DNA from: Syntrophobacterales bacterium
GTDB lineage: Bacteria; Desulfobacterota; Syntrophobacteria; BM002
Assembly: GCA_030613915.1 (NCBI GenBank)
Contig: JAUWKY010000076.1
Span: forward strand, 1 to 8,434
DNA: 8,434 bases
Direction of reading: 5' to 3'
Shown: piece after piece, positions 1-8,333 of the stretch
Layout of the letters: the number at the start of each line of letters is the position of its first letter
How positions within the stretch are numbered: the stretch's first letter is position 1
Notes under the pieces: generated by a model
Seen by the model: only the letters and a program-made list of their open reading frames with translations
What the model was told of the DNA's origin: nothing
Database searches by the model: none
Made by a program: the position numbers and the translations under genes

Positions 1-102
1 CTCTCTTTGCGCCAGTTTCACTAGCGCGGAAATCAATCCAGAGTTCTGCACTAAATAGTTAATGGAGTTTCTAAGGTTTATGATTTGGTAAGGTTCGTTC
101 AT
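1..102 (-). CDS. N-terminal fragment of an unrecognised protein, divergent from the MerR-type regulator gene
   Basis: On the minus strand an ATG at 102-100 opens a frame that stays open for 34 codons to the window edge. The peptide begins MNEPYQIINLRNSINYLVQN and continues to AQRE. I do not recognise the family from this fragment. Support for a real gene comes from a near-consensus sigma70 promoter at 163-136 placed to give a leader of about 27 nt, and from purine-rich sequence (GCGAGAA) a few bases before the ATG, which is a weak ribosome binding site. It lies divergently to a MerR-type regulator gene across AT-rich DNA holding many copies of one motif, the usual layout for a regulator and its target. 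Regulation of this gene by the MerR-type protein is inference. The rest of the gene is outside the window. Confidence 0.6.
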   Translation of the reverse strand, partial: MNEPYQIINLRNSINYLVQNSGLISALVKLAQRE

Positions 103-135: not shown

Positions 136-163
136 ATTGTAGTAAGGTTAGTTCGTCTGTCAA
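136..163 (-). promoter_or_regulatory. Sigma70-type promoter for the truncated minus-strand gene
   Basis: Read on the minus strand, a perfect -35 box TTGACA (163-158) is followed after 16 bp by TACAAT (141-136), 5 of 6 matches to the -10 consensus. Transcription would start near 129-130, just upstream of the ATG at 102. The -35 box continues as TTGACAG, sharing the GACAG core of the repeated motif found further right, so a protein binding that motif could also touch this promoter. That last point is inference. Confidence 0.6.
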
Positions 164-293
164 GTAAAGGTAAATCACTGCTCCGAGTTCTGATAGTCTA
201 TGAGGGATGGTGAAAGGGAGTAAAACATACTGTCTAAATAAAGTTCTGTGTCGTTGGACAGTATAAATGGTTGATTATACCGGTTTACTATGG

Positions 294-389
294 TGGATTG
301 TGCTTGCAATATATCTATTGTATAATTTAATCTCGTAAGGATAGACAGTAGGATCTGGGTAGGTGGTCATTCTACTGGATTGTGCATGC
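294..389 (+). repeat. Direct repeat TGGATTGTGC(T/A)TGC, two copies
   Basis: Copies lie at 294-307 and 376-389 and match at 13 of 14 bases, 82 bp apart. The second contains the palindrome GCATGC and is followed at once by GTATAC. Both lie among the TACTGTCTAA sites but do not contain that motif, so they may be a second class of binding site or the trace of a local duplication. Function unknown. Confidence 0.5.
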
Positions 390-459
390 TGTATACACAG
401 TCTAACATATGAATATAATTACTGTTAAATATTTTTTACTCTACTGTCTAATTTTTTCC

Positions 460-530
460 TTGACATTTAATCAGTATGGGTGTACTGTCTAAATCATTCC
501 ATCGCTTATCATTATAATATAGTCAGGGGA
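460..530 (+). promoter_or_regulatory. Candidate promoter and ribosome binding site of the MerR-type regulator gene
   Basis: A perfect -10 box TATAAT lies at 513-518 with no good -35 at normal spacing; the site TACTGTCTAA (483-492) sits where a -35 would be, as expected of an operator-controlled promoter. A second possibility uses TTGACA at 460-465 with TACTGT (483-488) as a poor -10 after 17 bp. Downstream, AGGGGA (525-530) is a strong Shine-Dalgarno sequence 6 nt before the TTG at 537, and this decides the chosen start. The true transcription start cannot be fixed by reading alone. Confidence 0.45.
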
Positions 531-536
531 AATGAT

Positions 537-2045
537 TTGACAGTCCAATTAGACAGTACAGCCATTTCCAGCAAGGAACTCATCGCCAGAACAGGCATAT
601 CCCGAGCAACACTCAACAACTATATCTCTCTAAACCTTATTCCGACCCCATCAGTACGCAAACCCGAAGAGCCCGGAGGACCGACAAAAATCGGTTACTT
701 TCCTGTGTGGGTGGTGGAAAGGATCGAGAAGATCCAGGAACTCAAAGGTGCAGGTATGCGCATGGCTGCAATCGCGGCTCAGTTCAACAAAGATGAGGTT
801 GAGGTGACCGATGATGACAGTCAACGGGTTGGGGACTTCGCATACCAGTCCATCGAAAAGATAGTTTTTCCTGCGATTTTGGTTAATCAGCGTTGGGAGA
901 TCATTTGGATTAACCAGATGGCTGAGAAGGTATTTTTTAAAGAGTCAGTTCACGAGATTCCTACAGCAGCAAACCGGAACATCCTCAGGCTTTTTTTGCA
1001 AGAGAGTTTGGAGAGACGTTTTAGAAATTGGAAAGAAATCTTGGCAGCACATTTGCGTCTGGCCAAAAGGGATTTGAGTGAGGACCGTGTGGAGCAGATA
1101 TGTCGCCAAGTTGAGACCTGTCCCATAGAGGAACTCAGACAGCTATGGCGTGAAGCTAAGCCTTTGCAGGACCGGCCCATCACCCAGCAAGAGCTTGTTT
1201 TTAAACCCTTCAAGGGGAAAAGCACGAGGCACACGCTTTTTTCCAGCGATTTTCGTGAGGGTACCCTCCTGCTTTATACCCCGCTCAGCATGCAGCTGGA
1301 TCAGATTCTAAACCTTCTCATGGGTAGAGAAAGACTGGTGAAGGCCTTGCTTTCCCGAAGGATTCCTTCACTGACATCTTTGTGCATTCTGGCGGGACGT
1401 CTGGAGTCGGGCCTTCATTTGCGCACTGCCCTTCCACCACACGAATACTTTGATTTGATTAACCAGGTTATTTTGACGTCCCACCAATGCTTCAAGGACT
1501 ACGGTGGCACGCCCGGTCGTTCAATTCAGGAAGGAGTTGTGTGTTTTTTCCTTTCGGGGCCGGATTCGCCGAGAGAGTATCTCCACTCTGCCATTCAGTG
1601 CGCTCAGGCTCTAAAGCAAATGGTCACCGCCCTTGACAAGCGCTGGAAATACAAGAAGGTTTGGAAAAACACCTTGCAGCTGAACATGGGAATTCACTGC
1701 GGTGAAGAATGGCTTGGAACCATACCCTCATCGCTAGCGTTCGAGTTTACCGTTATGGGTGAGACCCTCATTGAGACCATCAATCTGAGTGAGTTTGCTC
1801 AAGGGGGTTCCATTTGGGCCAGCAAAAAGGTGATTGAAAACATGTTGCCTGAAGATCGTCAACGGGTTGAATTCGGTGTTGGAATCGGCACTGGTCGGGA
1901 ACGGTTTGTCAGTCCGGGAATTTACTCTCAGGTAAGGGAGCTCATCAGCGGTGACGAACTGCAGCGGAGAGCACTGGGAGAAATAAGCAATCTGGCGGTC
2001 ACTGAAATAATCAATGTCCATCCATCAATAGATCAAGACCTGTAA
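537..2045 (+). CDS. MerR-type HTH regulator fused to an MmyB-like/PAS-like sensor region and a degenerate class III nucleotidyl cyclase domain
   Basis: The product is 502 aa from a TTG start chosen for AGGGGA 6 nt upstream; GTG at 480 would add 19 residues but lacks a ribosome binding site. Residues about 9-85 form a winged helix-turn-helix of MerR type (SSKELIARTGISRATLNNYI, then GYFPVWVVERIEKIQELKGA). Residues about 103-250 resemble the ligand-binding region of MmyB-like regulators, a PAS-like fold: FPAILVNQRWEIIWIN, then NRNILRLFL and a following FRNWKE. Residues about 277-440 follow the class III cyclase fold (GIHCGEEWLGTI, then VMGETLIETINL), but the first metal Asp is lost, the second position is Glu in IQEGVV, and the Asn and Arg of the VNLAAR motif are Ile and Asn. 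The cyclase part is probably a binding or dimerisation module. It likely acts as a cytoplasmic repressor or activator at the TACTGTCTAA sites and is first in an apparent operon with the GAF protein gene 27 bp downstream. The ligand is unknown. Confidence 0.8.
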   Translation: MTVQLDSTAISSKELIARTGISRATLNNYISLNLIPTPSVRKPEEPGGPTKIGYFPVWVVERIEKIQELKGAGMRMAAIAAQFNKDEVEVTDDDSQRVGDFAYQSIEKIVFPAILVNQRWEIIWINQMAEKVFFKESVHEIPTAANRNILRLFLQESLERRFRNWKEILAAHLRLAKRDLSEDRVEQICRQVETCPIEELRQLWREAKPLQDRPITQQELVFKPFKGKSTRHTLFSSDFREGTLLLYTPLSMQLDQILNLLMGRERLVKALLSRRIPSLTSLCILAGRLESGLHLRTALPPHEYFDLINQVILTSHQCFKDYGGTPGRSIQEGVVCFFLSGPDSPREYLHSAIQCAQALKQMVTALDKRWKYKKVWKNTLQLNMGIHCGEEWLGTIPSSLAFEFTVMGETLIETINLSEFAQGGSIWASKKVIENMLPEDRQRVEFGVGIGTGRERFVSPGIYSQVRELISGDELQRRALGEISNLAVTEIINVHPSIDQDL

Positions 2046-2072: not shown

Positions 2073-4043
2073 GTGATATCTGAAATCTCGATAGGTAGTC
2101 TGGGCAGTACGTTGAGGAATAGGAGTAGGCTCTTGTTAAAGAATGCTGCGAGGGCCCTCGGGTTAGCAGAACAGCGGGTCTATTACGGCCTGGTTATGGC
2201 CTTTGGTCTTTTGTTTATCCTTCCGAGTCTCGGATTTATTAATTTTGCCTACAAGTACAATTTTTTCTCTGATCACCATCTTGCCTATTATTTTCTTTCC
2301 ATCCTTATTTTTTCCTATCTGGGCTTTTTCATACTCCGTTCCCATGCGGATAGAATCTGCAGGATTTCCGAAAACATGGAACAATCGGTATCAGACATCC
2401 GGCATGAGTCTGGCCCGACACAGACCAGTGAGCTGAACAAGATAGTCGTCTCTTTTCAGCAACTAATGGACAGGCTTGAGAAAAACAATCAGACACTTGA
2501 ATCACAGGCCATACAGCTTCGTTCCCTCGCAGAACTCACCGATCCCCATTCCGCCTCCATGGGCGCCAACCTTGTGGTAAAACTCGGGTTGCAGAAAGCG
2601 TGTGAAGTTATTGGTGCCTCACGCGGCTGGATGCTGATGCTGGATGAAAGTCGTCGACATCACTTCACGGTTGTTTGTGAGTTTGGTTCCAACGGCAGCT
2701 CCCAGAGTCGGGTGGGAGCCCGAATTCCCTTCAGCGAGACCAAAGCCAAACAAGCGGTAATCAAGCGGAAGCCCTTGTTTCTGGCTGATCCTATCTGGCC
2801 TGAACAATCCAAAGAGGTTGAAGAGGATACGATCCGAGACCGAAGAGCCGCACTCGCGGTACCACTAACCACCGGCAGCGATGTTTTCGGGGTCATGTAT
2901 CTGGAAGACAAAAAAGAAAATTCTCCCTTTTCCCCCGCCGACTTAGACTTTGTTTTGCCGTTGGCCGCATGCCTCTCCTACCGTTACGAAAATCTACAGC
3001 TCCGAAATCAAATTGCGAGTCAGGCCGACCAGTTTAATTGCCTCTCGGCTTTCAACGAAGTCTGCAGCAAGGGACTGGTTCAGGGAAAGGTGTTCCAGTT
3101 GTTGACCAGGAAACTGCAAACTTATATGCCTACGAAAGTTTCCTTTCTCGCTCTCTCTGATACCAGCCAGGAATACTTGCAACTGCTTGAAGTGGCGTCC
3201 GAAGAACCTATTTCTCTCCGCAGCGGCATGACCCTACCTCTCAGGCAGAGTCTGTTCAGATTGGTTCTCGAGGAAAATCGGGCAATACATCAAAAAGATG
3301 TCACCGGTATGCTCAACCCCCTGGAAGCACGATGGTTTCAAGAACTGGGTATTAACTCTTGCTACCTGGCTCCATTCCGTCTTCAAGGTGTCAATGCTGG
3401 AATCCTATTTGTTGGAAGCGATGCAAAGGAGGGCTTTTCCAATCCTCAGCAAGTCATACTTCAACAAGCGGTCCAATACCTAGGACTCGCTGTCCATAAC
3501 CAGATGCTTTTACAGGAGATAGACGAGCAGGGTCGTGAGCTCGAGGTACTTAATCGGATCGGCAGCGTAGTTACTTCGTCTTTGTTTGATTTGGACAAGG
3601 TCTTGGATGAGGTGGGGGTACTGGTTGATCAAATGATAACGGTAGAGGCTGGTGCTATTTATCTTCGAGAAGAAAATGGCCTTGCCGTTAAGAAAAGTTT
3701 TGGGACTAAGGCGAACAGAATTGAGCCATTCAAAGTGAAGAATATCGAGGGAATATGCGGCTACGTCATGTCTCGGGGAGAATCGGTGCTTGTTAGAGAT
3801 GCCTCGCAAAACCCTCATGTATCTTCGATGGTCAAATATTTCGAGGGAACGAAAGCACGTTCCATTCTCTGTGTGCCTATGGTGGTTGGTGGGGAAGTGA
3901 TTGGTGCCATTCACATGTGGAACAAAAGAAGCGGCTCCTTTAACGCTCACGATAATAAAGTCATGAAATCGGTGGCTTCAAGCCTCGCCACTGCCATAGC
4001 AAGTTCCAGGCTCCACCAGATGTGCCAACGATTAACAACATGA
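2073..4043 (+). CDS. Membrane-anchored sensor with HAMP-like segment and three GAF domains, no output domain
   Basis: The 656-aa product starts at GTG, with GAAGG 8 nt upstream. Two hydrophobic helices, about residues 36-60 and 69-88, are joined by a very short loop, so almost all the protein is probably cytoplasmic. Residues about 89-150 form a HAMP-like and coiled-coil stretch (SELNKIVVSFQQLMDRLEKN). Three GAF domains follow: about 166-305 (AALAVPLTTGSDVFGVMYLE), 325-475 (YLAPFRLQGVNAGILFVGS) and 490-648 (SILCVPMVVGGEVIGAIHMW). The protein stops just after the third GAF. There is no HisKA/HATPase, GGDEF, EAL or cyclase domain, which normally follows such an array. It therefore probably signals by protein contact, perhaps to the pseudo-receiver encoded 13 bp downstream or the MerR-type protein encoded upstream. 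GAF ligands range from cyclic nucleotides to haem, bilins and small metabolites; none can be assigned here. The domain calls are firm, the partner assignment is inference. Confidence 0.85.
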   Translation: MISEISIGSLGSTLRNRSRLLLKNAARALGLAEQRVYYGLVMAFGLLFILPSLGFINFAYKYNFFSDHHLAYYFLSILIFSYLGFFILRSHADRICRISENMEQSVSDIRHESGPTQTSELNKIVVSFQQLMDRLEKNNQTLESQAIQLRSLAELTDPHSASMGANLVVKLGLQKACEVIGASRGWMLMLDESRRHHFTVVCEFGSNGSSQSRVGARIPFSETKAKQAVIKRKPLFLADPIWPEQSKEVEEDTIRDRRAALAVPLTTGSDVFGVMYLEDKKENSPFSPADLDFVLPLAACLSYRYENLQLRNQIASQADQFNCLSAFNEVCSKGLVQGKVFQLLTRKLQTYMPTKVSFLALSDTSQEYLQLLEVASEEPISLRSGMTLPLRQSLFRLVLEENRAIHQKDVTGMLNPLEARWFQELGINSCYLAPFRLQGVNAGILFVGSDAKEGFSNPQQVILQQAVQYLGLAVHNQMLLQEIDEQGRELEVLNRIGSVVTSSLFDLDKVLDEVGVLVDQMITVEAGAIYLREENGLAVKKSFGTKANRIEPFKVKNIEGICGYVMSRGESVLVRDASQNPHVSSMVKYFEGTKARSILCVPMVVGGEVIGAIHMWNKRSGSFNAHDNKVMKSVASSLATAIASSRLHQMCQRLTT

Positions 4044-4056
4044 TCGGGAGGAACCC

Positions 4057-4497
4057 ATGCAGAAATCCACTTTTCAATCACCTCGTGCTCACATTCTGCT
4101 TGTTGAAAAGAATCGAGGAGCTCTCGAGCTTCTCGAAGCTATGCTCTGTTGGAGGGGCTATCGTGTTACCACAGCGGTGGATGGTCGTGACGGCCTGGAA
4201 AAATTCCGTCACGGCCACTTCCAGCTCATTCTCACCAATCTCTCCACCCCCAGCATATCAGGATGGGAGTTGGGCCGCATTGTTAAAAAGAGCGAATTCT
4301 CGATACCGATAGCCCTCGTTACCGGTCTGGATTTCGGCGACAGACCAGACCATTCTCCCTTTGATGCAATTATCCCCGAGCCCTTCCCTTTTGATGACTT
4401 AGAGTGTGTGGTTGATTCCTTGATCAAATGTAGGAATGGAGGGACTGGAGAAGCAATTTCACTGGAAAATTTGCGACTGGGGGAAGGAAGTTCATGA
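4057..4497 (+). CDS. Stand-alone pseudo-receiver (degenerate response regulator receiver domain)
   Basis: The 146-aa product has a CheY-like fold over about residues 11-124 (HILLVEKNRGALELLEAM, then GYRVTTAVDGRDGLEKF), followed by a short polar tail with no output domain. The acidic pocket reads E17-K18-N19 rather than two acidic residues. The phospho-acceptor position is Asn61 in ILTNLSTPSISGWEL (codon AAT, 4237-4239). Thr89 is kept in ALVTG, but the conserved Lys before Pro-Phe is Glu108 (PEPF; codon GAG, 4378-4380). Normal aspartyl phosphorylation is therefore very unlikely; pseudo-receivers usually act through constitutive or ligand-driven contacts. It is translated from ATG with GGGAGGA close upstream and lies 13 bp after the GAF gene, so the two are probably co-transcribed. 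Its stop overlaps the end of the convergent HD-domain gene. Partner and target are unknown. Confidence 0.85.
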   Translation: MQKSTFQSPRAHILLVEKNRGALELLEAMLCWRGYRVTTAVDGRDGLEKFRHGHFQLILTNLSTPSISGWELGRIVKKSEFSIPIALVTGLDFGDRPDHSPFDAIIPEPFPFDDLECVVDSLIKCRNGGTGEAISLENLRLGEGSS

Positions 4498-6398: not shown

Positions 6399-6401
6399 AT
6401 A

Positions 6402-6517
6402 TTTCGGATTGCGGATTTGTCCTTCGGACTCCCACCCTTCGGGCGGGTTCCCGGTTTCGGATTGCGAATTTAAGAAGGCATGGAGCATAGGTCATAGAGC
6501 ATAGGGTAGAGGGAAAT
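6402..6517 (+). repeat. Degenerate heptamer arrays interrupted by a hairpin element
   Basis: From 6402 the DNA runs in 7-base steps: TTTCGGA (6402-6408), TTGCGGA (6409-6415) and so on to 6429. After the hairpin segment the same unit restarts at 6455 as TTTCGGATTGCGAATTT, matching 6402-6418 at 16 of 17 bases. From 6483 the period continues with a different motif, GAGCATA (6483-6489, 6497-6503) alternating with GGTCATA and GGGTAGA. The 7-base period is incompatible with a coding frame. The gene-free interval 6399-6715 holds this array, the hairpins and further arrays to its right. Confidence 0.65.
6419..6454 (+). repeat. Composite two-hairpin intergenic element, plus-orientation copy
   Basis: GTCCTTCGGAC (6419-6429) folds as a 4-bp stem with loop TTC. 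One base later CCCACCCTTCGGGCGGG (6431-6447) folds with three pairs, an A-C mismatch, three pairs and a TTC loop, then CCGG and TTTC follow. The same layout occurs reversed at 7951-7990. It lies just after the ADP-ribosylglycohydrolase stop and could slow or end transcription, but no T-run follows, so a classical intrinsic terminator is not supported. Confidence 0.6.
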
Positions 6518-6534
6518 ACAGCTGGCAGCCGTTT

Positions 6535-6708
6535 GCACTAGGCACTAGAAACTAAGCACCAAATTATTTAAGAATTCAGGAGTCAGAATCCAGAATCCAA
6601 GAGGCTAAAACATAAAGAGTTTTATTCCATTTTGGCTACTGGCTACTGACTACTGGATTCTGTGGTTCTTTTTCCTGACACCTGACACCTGAACCCTGAC
6701 ATTTGAGG
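6535..6708 (+). repeat. Four further heptamer-periodic arrays upstream of the hydrolase gene
   Basis: Four separate arrays, each of about four or five units, have their own motif but one period of seven: 6535-6562 (GCACTAG twice, then decayed units), 6575-6602 (units like GTCAGAA and TCCAGAA), 6632-6666 (units like CTGGCTA and CTGACTA) and 6674-6708 (CCTGACA at 6674, 6681 and 6695, with CCTGAAC between). The 6575 array is close to a reverse complement of the last two: CAGAATCCAG (6584-6593) and CTGGATTCTG (6653-6662) are an exact inverted pair. No promoter is evident. The last unit runs into the GAGGGT ribosome binding site. Confidence 0.7.
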
Positions 6709-6715
6709 GTCACCT

Positions 6716-7780: not shown

Positions 7781-7816
7781 TGGAGTGGTCCAATCTCCAT
7801 ATTGCAAGTCGCGCCC

Positions 7817-7956
7817 AGAAATCCGAAATCCGAAGTACGAAATCCGAAACAAATTCAAATCACCAAAGCACAAAATCCGAAACGAACAAACTATGAAAGC
7901 GAAATATGAAAAACTTAACGAGGAATTATCGTTTTGAACATTTGATATTTGAAACC
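7817..7956 (+). repeat. Long degenerate heptamer array downstream of the hydrolase gene
   Basis: Units CGAAATC at 7824-7830 and 7838-7844, with AGAAATC, CGAAGTA and CGAAACA in phase, form a clear 7-base period from 7817 to about 7851. It continues in decayed form (CAAATTC, CAAAGCA, CAAAATC steps) to about 7884. A shorter piece at 7936-7956 repeats TGATATT-like units. The first units are the reverse complement of the TTCGGAT motif seen at 6402 and 6455. No gene is supported in 7781-8333; it holds this array, hairpins and the MITE-like element. Confidence 0.65.
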
Positions 7957-7990
7957 GGGGCCCCACCTTCAGGTGGGGAGTCCGAAGGAC
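7951..7990 (-). repeat. Composite two-hairpin intergenic element, minus-orientation copy
   Basis: CCCCACCTTCAGGTGGGG (7961-7978) is a perfect 7-bp stem with a four-base loop, and GTCCGAAGGAC (7980-7990) is the reverse complement of the small hairpin at 6419-6429. GAAACCGG borders it at 7951-7958. Read on the minus strand, the order matches the 6419-6454 copy: small hairpin, one T, larger hairpin, CCGGTTTC. The larger stem differs in sequence between copies but keeps its pairing. Confidence 0.6.
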
Positions 7991-8001
7991 CAATTTCGGA
8001 T

Positions 8002-8262
8002 AACGCCTATGCACTTAACTCCGCAGGATGACTACATGCCCCCTCTCCCCTCAAAAGACTGTGTCGCAATTCGTCATCCCGGCCAAGTCCCGCAAAGCGG
8101 GACGCGAGCCGGGATCCAGAAAGAACCTGATTATATTGAACTTTCACTGGATTCCGGATCTCGTCCGCCTCAGGCGAACTCGTCCGGAATGACGGGTTCG
8201 GCGAATTGTGACATAGTTTCCAAGGGGGAAGGGATTTTTGCGGAGTTAAGTGCATAGGCGTT
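8002..8262. mobile_element. MITE-like non-coding element with 24-bp terminal inverted repeats
   Basis: Positions 8002-8025 are the exact reverse complement of 8239-8262. The element is bordered at once by TTCGGAT on both sides (7995-8001 and 8263-8269), consistent with a 7-bp target duplication. Inside, 8057-8073 pairs with 8202-8218 at 14 of 17 positions. The centre holds two opposed copies of a GTCATCCCGG...CCGGGATCCAG type hairpin repeat (8073-8118 and about 8148-8193). No transposase is encoded, and the open frames across it on both strands look like products of the symmetry. It would need a transposase from elsewhere. Removing it restores a continuous TTCGGATTTG heptamer-type sequence. 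Confidence 0.75.
8087..8103. repeat. Small perfect hairpin GTCCCGCAAAGCGGGAC nested in the MITE-like element
   Basis: This is a 7-bp GC-rich stem with loop AAA. It sits in the loop of the larger GTCATCCCGG...CCGGGATCC hairpin and looks inserted there. A second nested hairpin, TCCGCCTCAGGCGAA, lies at 8164-8178 between two CTCG copies (8160-8163, 8179-8182). Confidence 0.5.
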
Positions 8263-8311
8263 TTCGGATTTGTTTCGTCCGCCTCCGGCGGATCGATATT
8301 CGGATTTGTTT
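8263..8311 (+). repeat. Direct repeat TTCGGATTTGTTT bracketing a small hairpin
   Basis: TTCGGATTTGTTT occurs at 8263-8275 and 8299-8311. Between them TCCGCCTCCGGCGGA (8278-8292) is a perfect 6-bp stem with a TCC loop, bordered by TCG on each side (8275-8277, 8293-8295). The hairpin closely resembles the one nested at 8164-8178. It ends 41 bp before the start codon at 8334 and lacks a following T-run. Confidence 0.55.
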
Positions 8312-8333
8312 TGCTCGATAGATTGGTGACTAT

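Follow-up and report, generated by a model that had tools for sequence, protein, structure and literature searches.

Between two divergent genes of a Syntrophobacterales bacterium lies a run of short repeats in both orientations, which enters the coding start of a regulator gene. We asked which protein would bind these repeats, and what so many sites would do at one promoter, using a window of 8,434 nucleotides (the whole stretch of DNA analysed). The reading that we favour, at a probability of about 0.6, is that the repeats are near-palindromic operators predicted to be bound by the adjacent MerR-PAS-pseudocyclase protein (likely as one dimer per site), which would repress its own operon.

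Repeats in front of the regulator gene

The initial annotation had described about nine copies of a motif in about 330 bp, and this description was borne out. We observed four exact copies of TACTGTCTAA in 228-558 (228+, 442+, 483+ and 549-), six copies when one mismatch was allowed (254- and 341- joining the four), and eleven with at most two mismatches (further 316+, 396+, 420+, 467- and 536-). The shuffle means at these three levels were 0.002, 0.056 and 0.73, and the observed 4, 6 and 11 were reached in 0 of 2000 dinucleotide-preserving shuffles of the region 201-560. The five copies of the exact 8-mer ACTGTCTA were likewise confirmed (229+, 342-, 443+, 484+ and 550-). All the copies in the window fall inside the array (229-557), where 0.20 were expected, and five were reached in 0 of 200 shuffles of the window. 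When three mismatches were allowed, the whole window had 52 matches to TACTGTCTAA against 48.1 expected; as this is no excess, the weakest copies carry no meaning alone.

We also searched the organism's own assembly (2.25 Mb in 351 contigs, 79% complete), as had been proposed, and the motif was rare: four of the five exact copies of TACTGTCTAA fall in the array. Copies with at most one mismatch occurred at 62 places, fewer than the 116 of the reversed-pattern control, and the motif is therefore not common. A known RNA element was dropped as an explanation of the array, no Rfam family reaching its gathering score in the window. Elsewhere in the window, short repeats of the type TTCGGATT/AATCCGAA abound in the intergenic stretches 6400-6710 and 7790-8330.

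The divergent pair that was said to flank the array is a nucleotidyltransferase gene (minus strand) and the regulator gene (plus strand). The most likely start of the regulator is TTG 537 rather than the mechanically listed GTG 480, since AGGGGA precedes the TTG and the orthologues begin there. With this start the last site falls in codons 5-8, and the array indeed runs into the regulator's own start. We read the regulator promoter as TTGACA (460-465), a spacer of 17 bp, and TACTGT (483-488). The consensus promoter scan omits it because TACTGT fails the -10 rule of the scan, and lists a different plus-strand candidate at 392-419. The TTGACA-N16-TACAAT site on the minus strand is presumably used by the divergent gene. 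The window covers only the first codons of this gene, which read MNEPYQIINLRNSINYLVQNSG... as at the gene start in an orthologous locus (L002), and its identity was taken from that locus and L004. The L002 gene has a Pfam PolyA_pol match, and the NCBIfam CCA models are below cut-off. Downstream, the GAF and receiver-like genes probably share the operon of the regulator. The receiver-like protein has Asn in LTNLSTP where two relatives (L015 and L016) have Asp, so that the window's genus may have lost the usual site of phosphorylation.

Table 1. Coordinates of the features in the window
Feature	Position	Strand	Remarks
Divergent CCA/poly(A)-polymerase-type nucleotidyltransferase gene, 5' part	1..102	-	start at 102 or slightly upstream
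Promoter-like site of divergent gene, TTGACA-N16-TACAAT	136..163	-	scan, 11/12 matches
Site 1	228..237	+	exact TACTGTCTAA; left arm of distal convergent pair
Site 2	254..263	-	TACTGTCCAA; 26 bp from site 1
Site 3	316..325	+	weak, 2 mismatches; L001 and L002 have TATTGTCTAA
Site 4	341..350	-	TACTGTCTAT
Site 5	396..405	+	weak, 2 mismatches
Possible weak site	420..429	+	2 mismatches; slot without match in orthologues
Site 6	442..451	+	exact; directly 5' of -35 element, 41 bp upstream of -10 site; slot common to L001, L002, L003
-35 element TTGACA, regulator promoter	460..465	+	TTGAC[AT]-N17-TACTGT in 10/10 orthologous promoters
Possible weak site in -35/-10 spacer	467..476	-	2 mismatches; at most 2 mismatches in 5/10 promoters
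Site 7	483..492	+	exact; TACTGT 483-488 read as -10 element; in 10/10 orthologous promoters
Shine-Dalgarno-like AGGGGA	526..531	+	from the sequence
Possible weak site over start codon	536..545	-	2 mismatches; also in L001, L002, L003
Regulator gene	537..2045	+	TTG start, 502 aa; MerR winged helix, PAS-like domain, degenerate class III cyclase fold
Site 8	549..558	-	exact; within regulator codons 5-8; 7/10 orthologues
Winged helix-turn-helix, residues 9-88	561..800	+	Pfam MerR_1; model
PAS-like sensor region, residues ~111-250	867..1286	+	Pfam PF17765 MLTR_LBD over 111-211; model
Class III cyclase fold without catalytic residues, residues 279-495	1371..2021	+	degenerate
GAF-domain gene	2073..4043	+	Pfam GAF/GAF_2, up to three stretches; 27 bp 3' of regulator
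Receiver-like gene	4057..4497	+	Pfam Response_reg

The predicted operator unit and its conservation

We examined the flanking bases outside the search motif in 42 sites from 15 one-per-genus loci. T was observed at -2 in 36 sites (p 1.7e-12) and at -3 in 26 (p 9e-5), together completing TT...AA, and at +11 in 27 (p 3e-5), while A at -1 (19 sites, p 0.06) was not significant. In the window's own group the T at -2 was present in 65%, and -1 had no preference. From these flanks each copy is read as an imperfect 13-bp palindrome, TTATAC-W-GTMTAA; the dyad symmetry that marks operators of the broad MerR family is thus present, apart from the inner -1 position. One dimer per copy is likely. As the copies are near-palindromic, a mixed orientation is expected and the orientation of a copy has little meaning. 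To the initial annotation the mixed orientation and the spacings had suggested cooperative or oligomeric binding; mixed orientation calls for no special oligomer, since each copy is an imperfect palindrome, as in the usual MerR operator that takes one dimer. We first viewed the copies as half-sites of 26-bp convergent pairs; as a general description this was given up, since some loci lack the pair and the flanks reveal the palindrome within each copy. The distal convergent pair itself is conserved.

The likeness to CarH/LitR, in which higher oligomers would span several sites under cofactor control, also did not hold. Like the regulator, these proteins combine a MerR winged helix and a C-terminal sensor and have several promoter sites (available passages of PMC9304148 and PMC9758184), and CarH proteins bind multi-repeat operators (PMC9304148). 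However, the Pfam scans of the regulator gave no B12-binding domain among their matches, each copy is near-palindromic, and the layout is not that of the tandem 11-bp direct repeats which PMC9304148 gives for CarH. We rejected this mode on domains and site layout, and consider it very unlikely.

The conservation of the motif upstream of orthologues, proposed as a check, was observed; with the rarity of the motif in the genome, two of the three refuting conditions of the initial annotation do not apply. The orthologue set comprised the window, seven loci from Desulfobacterota/Deltaproteobacteria records (L001-L007) and two from further genera of the family (L015 and L022). TTGAC[AT]-N17-TACTGT was present in all ten promoters, each of which has a site covering the -10 element (slot 0). 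A slot at about +66, inside the coding start, was occupied in seven (window, L001-L005 and L007). The slot at -41 was found in the window and L001-L003, with an alternative at about -90 in L004-L007 (weak in L022), and further slots lie at about -167 and -142 relative to the -10 site. The distal convergent pair (about -257/-231, 26-27 bp apart) was present in the window, L002, L004, L005, L006 and L007, and in L015 at -192/-166. Another contig from the genome of L003 (L029) ends with the missing half of the L003 array, including the 26-bp pair.

The slots were more conserved than the DNA between them in all seven alignments to the window (made without L003 and L022). Identities inside and outside the slots were 0.91/0.67 (L001), 0.91/0.64, 0.74/0.41 (L004), 0.74/0.43, 0.69/0.42, 0.66/0.36 and, in another genus (L015), 0.56/0.32. 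In eight loci (the window and seven others, L003 being left out of the shuffles) the sites with at most one mismatch numbered 4-7. The shuffle means were 0.04-0.09, and none of the 2000 shuffles per locus reached the observed count; loci of group A that belong to one genus are not independent of each other. L022 had one such site to the C form, a number equalled in 93 of 2000 shuffles; it uses the A form TACTGTATAA.

These promoters also bear on the sign of the control. The protein could bind and activate, by a MerR-style distortion of promoter DNA, the array serving as upstream activating sites for the operon or for the divergent nucleotidyltransferase gene. The MerR-type winged helix, the position of the sites between two divergent promoters and the weak spacer site in five of the ten promoters are consistent with this. 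However, the spacer is 17 bp in all ten promoters, whereas classical MerR activators have their operator in a spacer of 19-20 bp (available passages of PMC5859096), a site covers the -10 element in all ten, and distant homologues that retain the motif do not have the divergent gene next to them. The classical activator layout was thus not observed, and we consider activation unlikely.

Exact copies were largely confined to the arrays. In the genomes of six relatives we found 22, with 15 in the array and one in a second array copy (genome G008). The convergent-pair pattern occurred at eight places in 12 genomes, six of them at the array, and the control pattern in three genomes, once each. Seven single exact sites outside arrays were examined; three lay within open frames of 221-604 codons, the rest in short or no frames or immediately before a gene, and none were clustered. 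We dropped a wide regulon, as the pair pattern is mostly at the array and the single outside sites are unclustered.

G008 carries the array twice, beside the regulator (L006, upstream of 3001) and beside the nucleotidyltransferase gene (L023, 5440-5710), and both copies are bordered by masked stretches; a rearrangement or an assembly join within the intergenic region is likely. This second copy and the AT-rich DNA would agree with sites that serve the neighbouring nucleotidyltransferase gene, or with a structural or repeat element. However, the second copy has a decayed arm, the gene is absent beside distant homologues, and shuffles that keep the dinucleotides do not yield the sites, so that this explanation is barely credible. 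Contigs of two further genomes end inside the array (L003 1-135, with L029 1514-1567; L075 4190-4331). In genome G015 the regulator gene is in two pieces at distant places (L016 and L022), each adjoining masked DNA and one adjoining a transposase-like reading frame.

The regulator and its homologues

The regulator had been called MerR-type, and the broad MerR family's winged helix-turn-helix is indeed present. MerR_1 scored 23.9 bits on residues 9-82 alone (cut-off 21.6) and 17.9, below cut-off, on the full protein; it matched 17 of 17 family members at E<=0.01. A profile search matched PDB 4ua1 at 8.6e-4, and the recognition-helix segment ISR-TLN-YI varies little or not at all. After the winged helix, where classical MerR activators have a dimerisation coiled coil, the monomer model (pTM 0.52) has a disordered linker (86-103, pLDDT <50). 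The VIA list of the fold search was filled by the cyclase domain, so the winged helix and PAS-like part lie outside that search. The C-terminal part has the class III nucleotide cyclase fold. In the window protein the catalytic set (two metal Asp, transition-state Asn and Arg) is missing, with Asp->Arg, Asp->Glu, and both Asn and Arg lost. Compared with the class III adenylate cyclases CyaB (3r5g), CyaC (1wc1) and Cya2 (2w01), proteins of the window's lineage no longer have the catalytic Asp, Asn and Arg and carry a fused MerR winged helix. The catalytic residues are kept in 19 of 20 distant homologues (counted without the 129-residue regulator fragment of L076), and L072 has the two Asp only.

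We further observed that the regulator family occurs in 11 of the 395 genomes of the phylum sample and, in the order of one of those genomes, in 16 of 46. These homologues are 30-35% identical to the window protein over the aligned stretch. Of the 23 distant loci, 19 were scored; L054, L055 and L057 were without the winged helix by text pattern, and L048 had only 30 bp upstream. At least two TACTGT[AC]TAA matches (at most one mismatch) were present within 400 bp upstream in 18 of the 19, against 0.02-0.25 expected, a count that includes some cases where both strands of one palindromic site match. L040 (family f73) had no TACTGT[AC]TAA site upstream. The loci with the motif come from six other families of the phylum (f59, f77, f32, f55, f36 and f13). 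At 16 of 18 loci (L073 and L074, without the winged helix by text pattern, being left out) there were 37 sites in 4,337 bp upstream of the regulator versus 21 in 137,736 bp elsewhere, the second L064 regulator promoter being counted as elsewhere. Among the window's six neighbours, only the GAF gene was found, at 3 of the 19 distant loci with the regulator. As the neighbours mostly differ, the motif stays with the regulator.

A common plan in these loci places one site ahead of the -35 element and the next 33-35 bp further, with TTGACA between (L046, L047 and L049-L051). The TTGACA-to-site distance is 9-12 bp where aligned, versus 17 in the window, which leaves the exact -10 register in doubt. 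The tandem pair ACTGTMTAA-N15-40-ACTGTMTAA occurred seven times in the 46 whole genomes and its reversed-pattern control twice. Six pairs lie just upstream of the regulator, and the seventh (L075), at a contig end, has the same TTGACA...TCTGTATAAT promoter. The ancestral operator appears to have been of two sites, before the -35 and over the -10 element; the intact-cyclase relatives have mostly two to five. In one locus (L054, upstream of 1488, genome G457) the recognition helix is altered to ITMPTLNYYI, and the promoter sites are altered too, to TTCTATATAA and TACTTTATAA; this single case would fit co-variation of protein and site. L055 carries AACTGTATAT.

A second gene, 51-60% identical, was found in five genomes (paralogue group B, L017-L021), and none of its five upstream regions has a site with at most one mismatch. 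In L017, however, the winged helix is as close to that of the window (81%) as in L004, L006 and L015. Paralogue B may also bind the array, or may have lost its self-control, and is the strongest point against any simple account. In L017 (about 1298-1312) it adjoins a hydroxylamine-reductase (prismane) gene; the TTGACTTATGTCAA between the two is a sequence that we take to resemble an FNR/HcpR-type box.

Another regulator, for example LexA-like or global, might bind the sites in place of the MerR protein. TACTGT is similar to half of the E. coli LexA box, SOS and LexA papers were among the motif-string matches listed, and paralogue B lacks sites despite its closely similar winged helix. However, the convergent and divergent spacings do not suit a LexA box, and the motif stays with the regulator gene across families. 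In addition, in the genomes searched the pair patterns are confined to the regulator promoter (six of eight places for convergent pairs, six or seven of seven for tandem pairs). We therefore find another binder improbable.

Proposed mode of action

Together, these observations have led us to infer that the encoded protein binds the sites and, when bound, represses; repression rather than activation is deduced from the position of the sites alone. The best reading is that it would work like a MerR-type autorepressor with many operators. A dimer on the -10 element would block RNA polymerase, and the cyclase-fold domain would hold the dimer together. In the window's lineage the two-site operator would have multiplied into an array, and the extra sites would raise occupancy through local concentration, bridging or looping. 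Many sites could give a sharper or stronger response, and binding at the array may be cooperative. Repression would be relieved by a ligand of the PAS-like or cyclase-fold domain, or by the GAF partner from the next gene; the signal could come from the GAF and receiver-like proteins encoded downstream.

The proposed mode has precedents, since PMC9938897 (available passages) cites HnoC and McdR as MerR-type repressors that recognise palindromes lying across the start site and -10 element. Like these and CvkR, the regulator has a MerR winged helix and a short palindrome (AnnACATnATGTnnT for CvkR). It differs from them, as these passages describe them, in having six to eleven sites rather than one or few, a PAS-like and cyclase-fold sensor part, and a site inside the coding start. 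With BldC it shares a MerR-like winged helix and a number of sites that varies between promoters; however, BldC has 68 residues and binds direct repeats head-to-tail (available passages of PMC5859096). Membership of the BldC family (a winged helix alone, on direct repeats) was not retained, as the regulator has 502 residues, three parts and near-palindromes in both orientations. In the literature searched (titles, abstract starts and some passages; for the motif string, the 15 listed of 38 matches) we found no paper on a MerR-cyclase fusion or a TACTGT[AC]TAA-type motif, and helix-turn-helix words had no match in the available text of PMC2447327.

A wider reading, which we put forward tentatively and hold to be less probable than the autorepressor, is that of a promoter-bound adenylate cyclase family on its own operator TTATAC-W-GTMTAA across the phylum. 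One DNA-bound enzyme would run both cyclic-nucleotide chemistry and transcription. In the window's lineage it would have become a pseudoenzyme that acts as sensor and dimeriser, with the operator multiplied from two sites to an occupancy switch of six to eleven.

As far as the literature searched in part shows, this regulator family was previously undescribed, and its operator was deduced from sequence alone. It offers a testable link, within a single protein, between DNA binding and a class III cyclase. As a conserved MerR-type promoter with many predicted dimer sites, the array is useful for tests of cooperativity. The intact-cyclase relatives, with their few sites, and the pseudo-cyclase lineage, with its long array, would form a natural experiment on the passage from signalling enzyme to pure regulator, the lengthening of the array and the loss of catalytic residues being seen together in one such lineage here.
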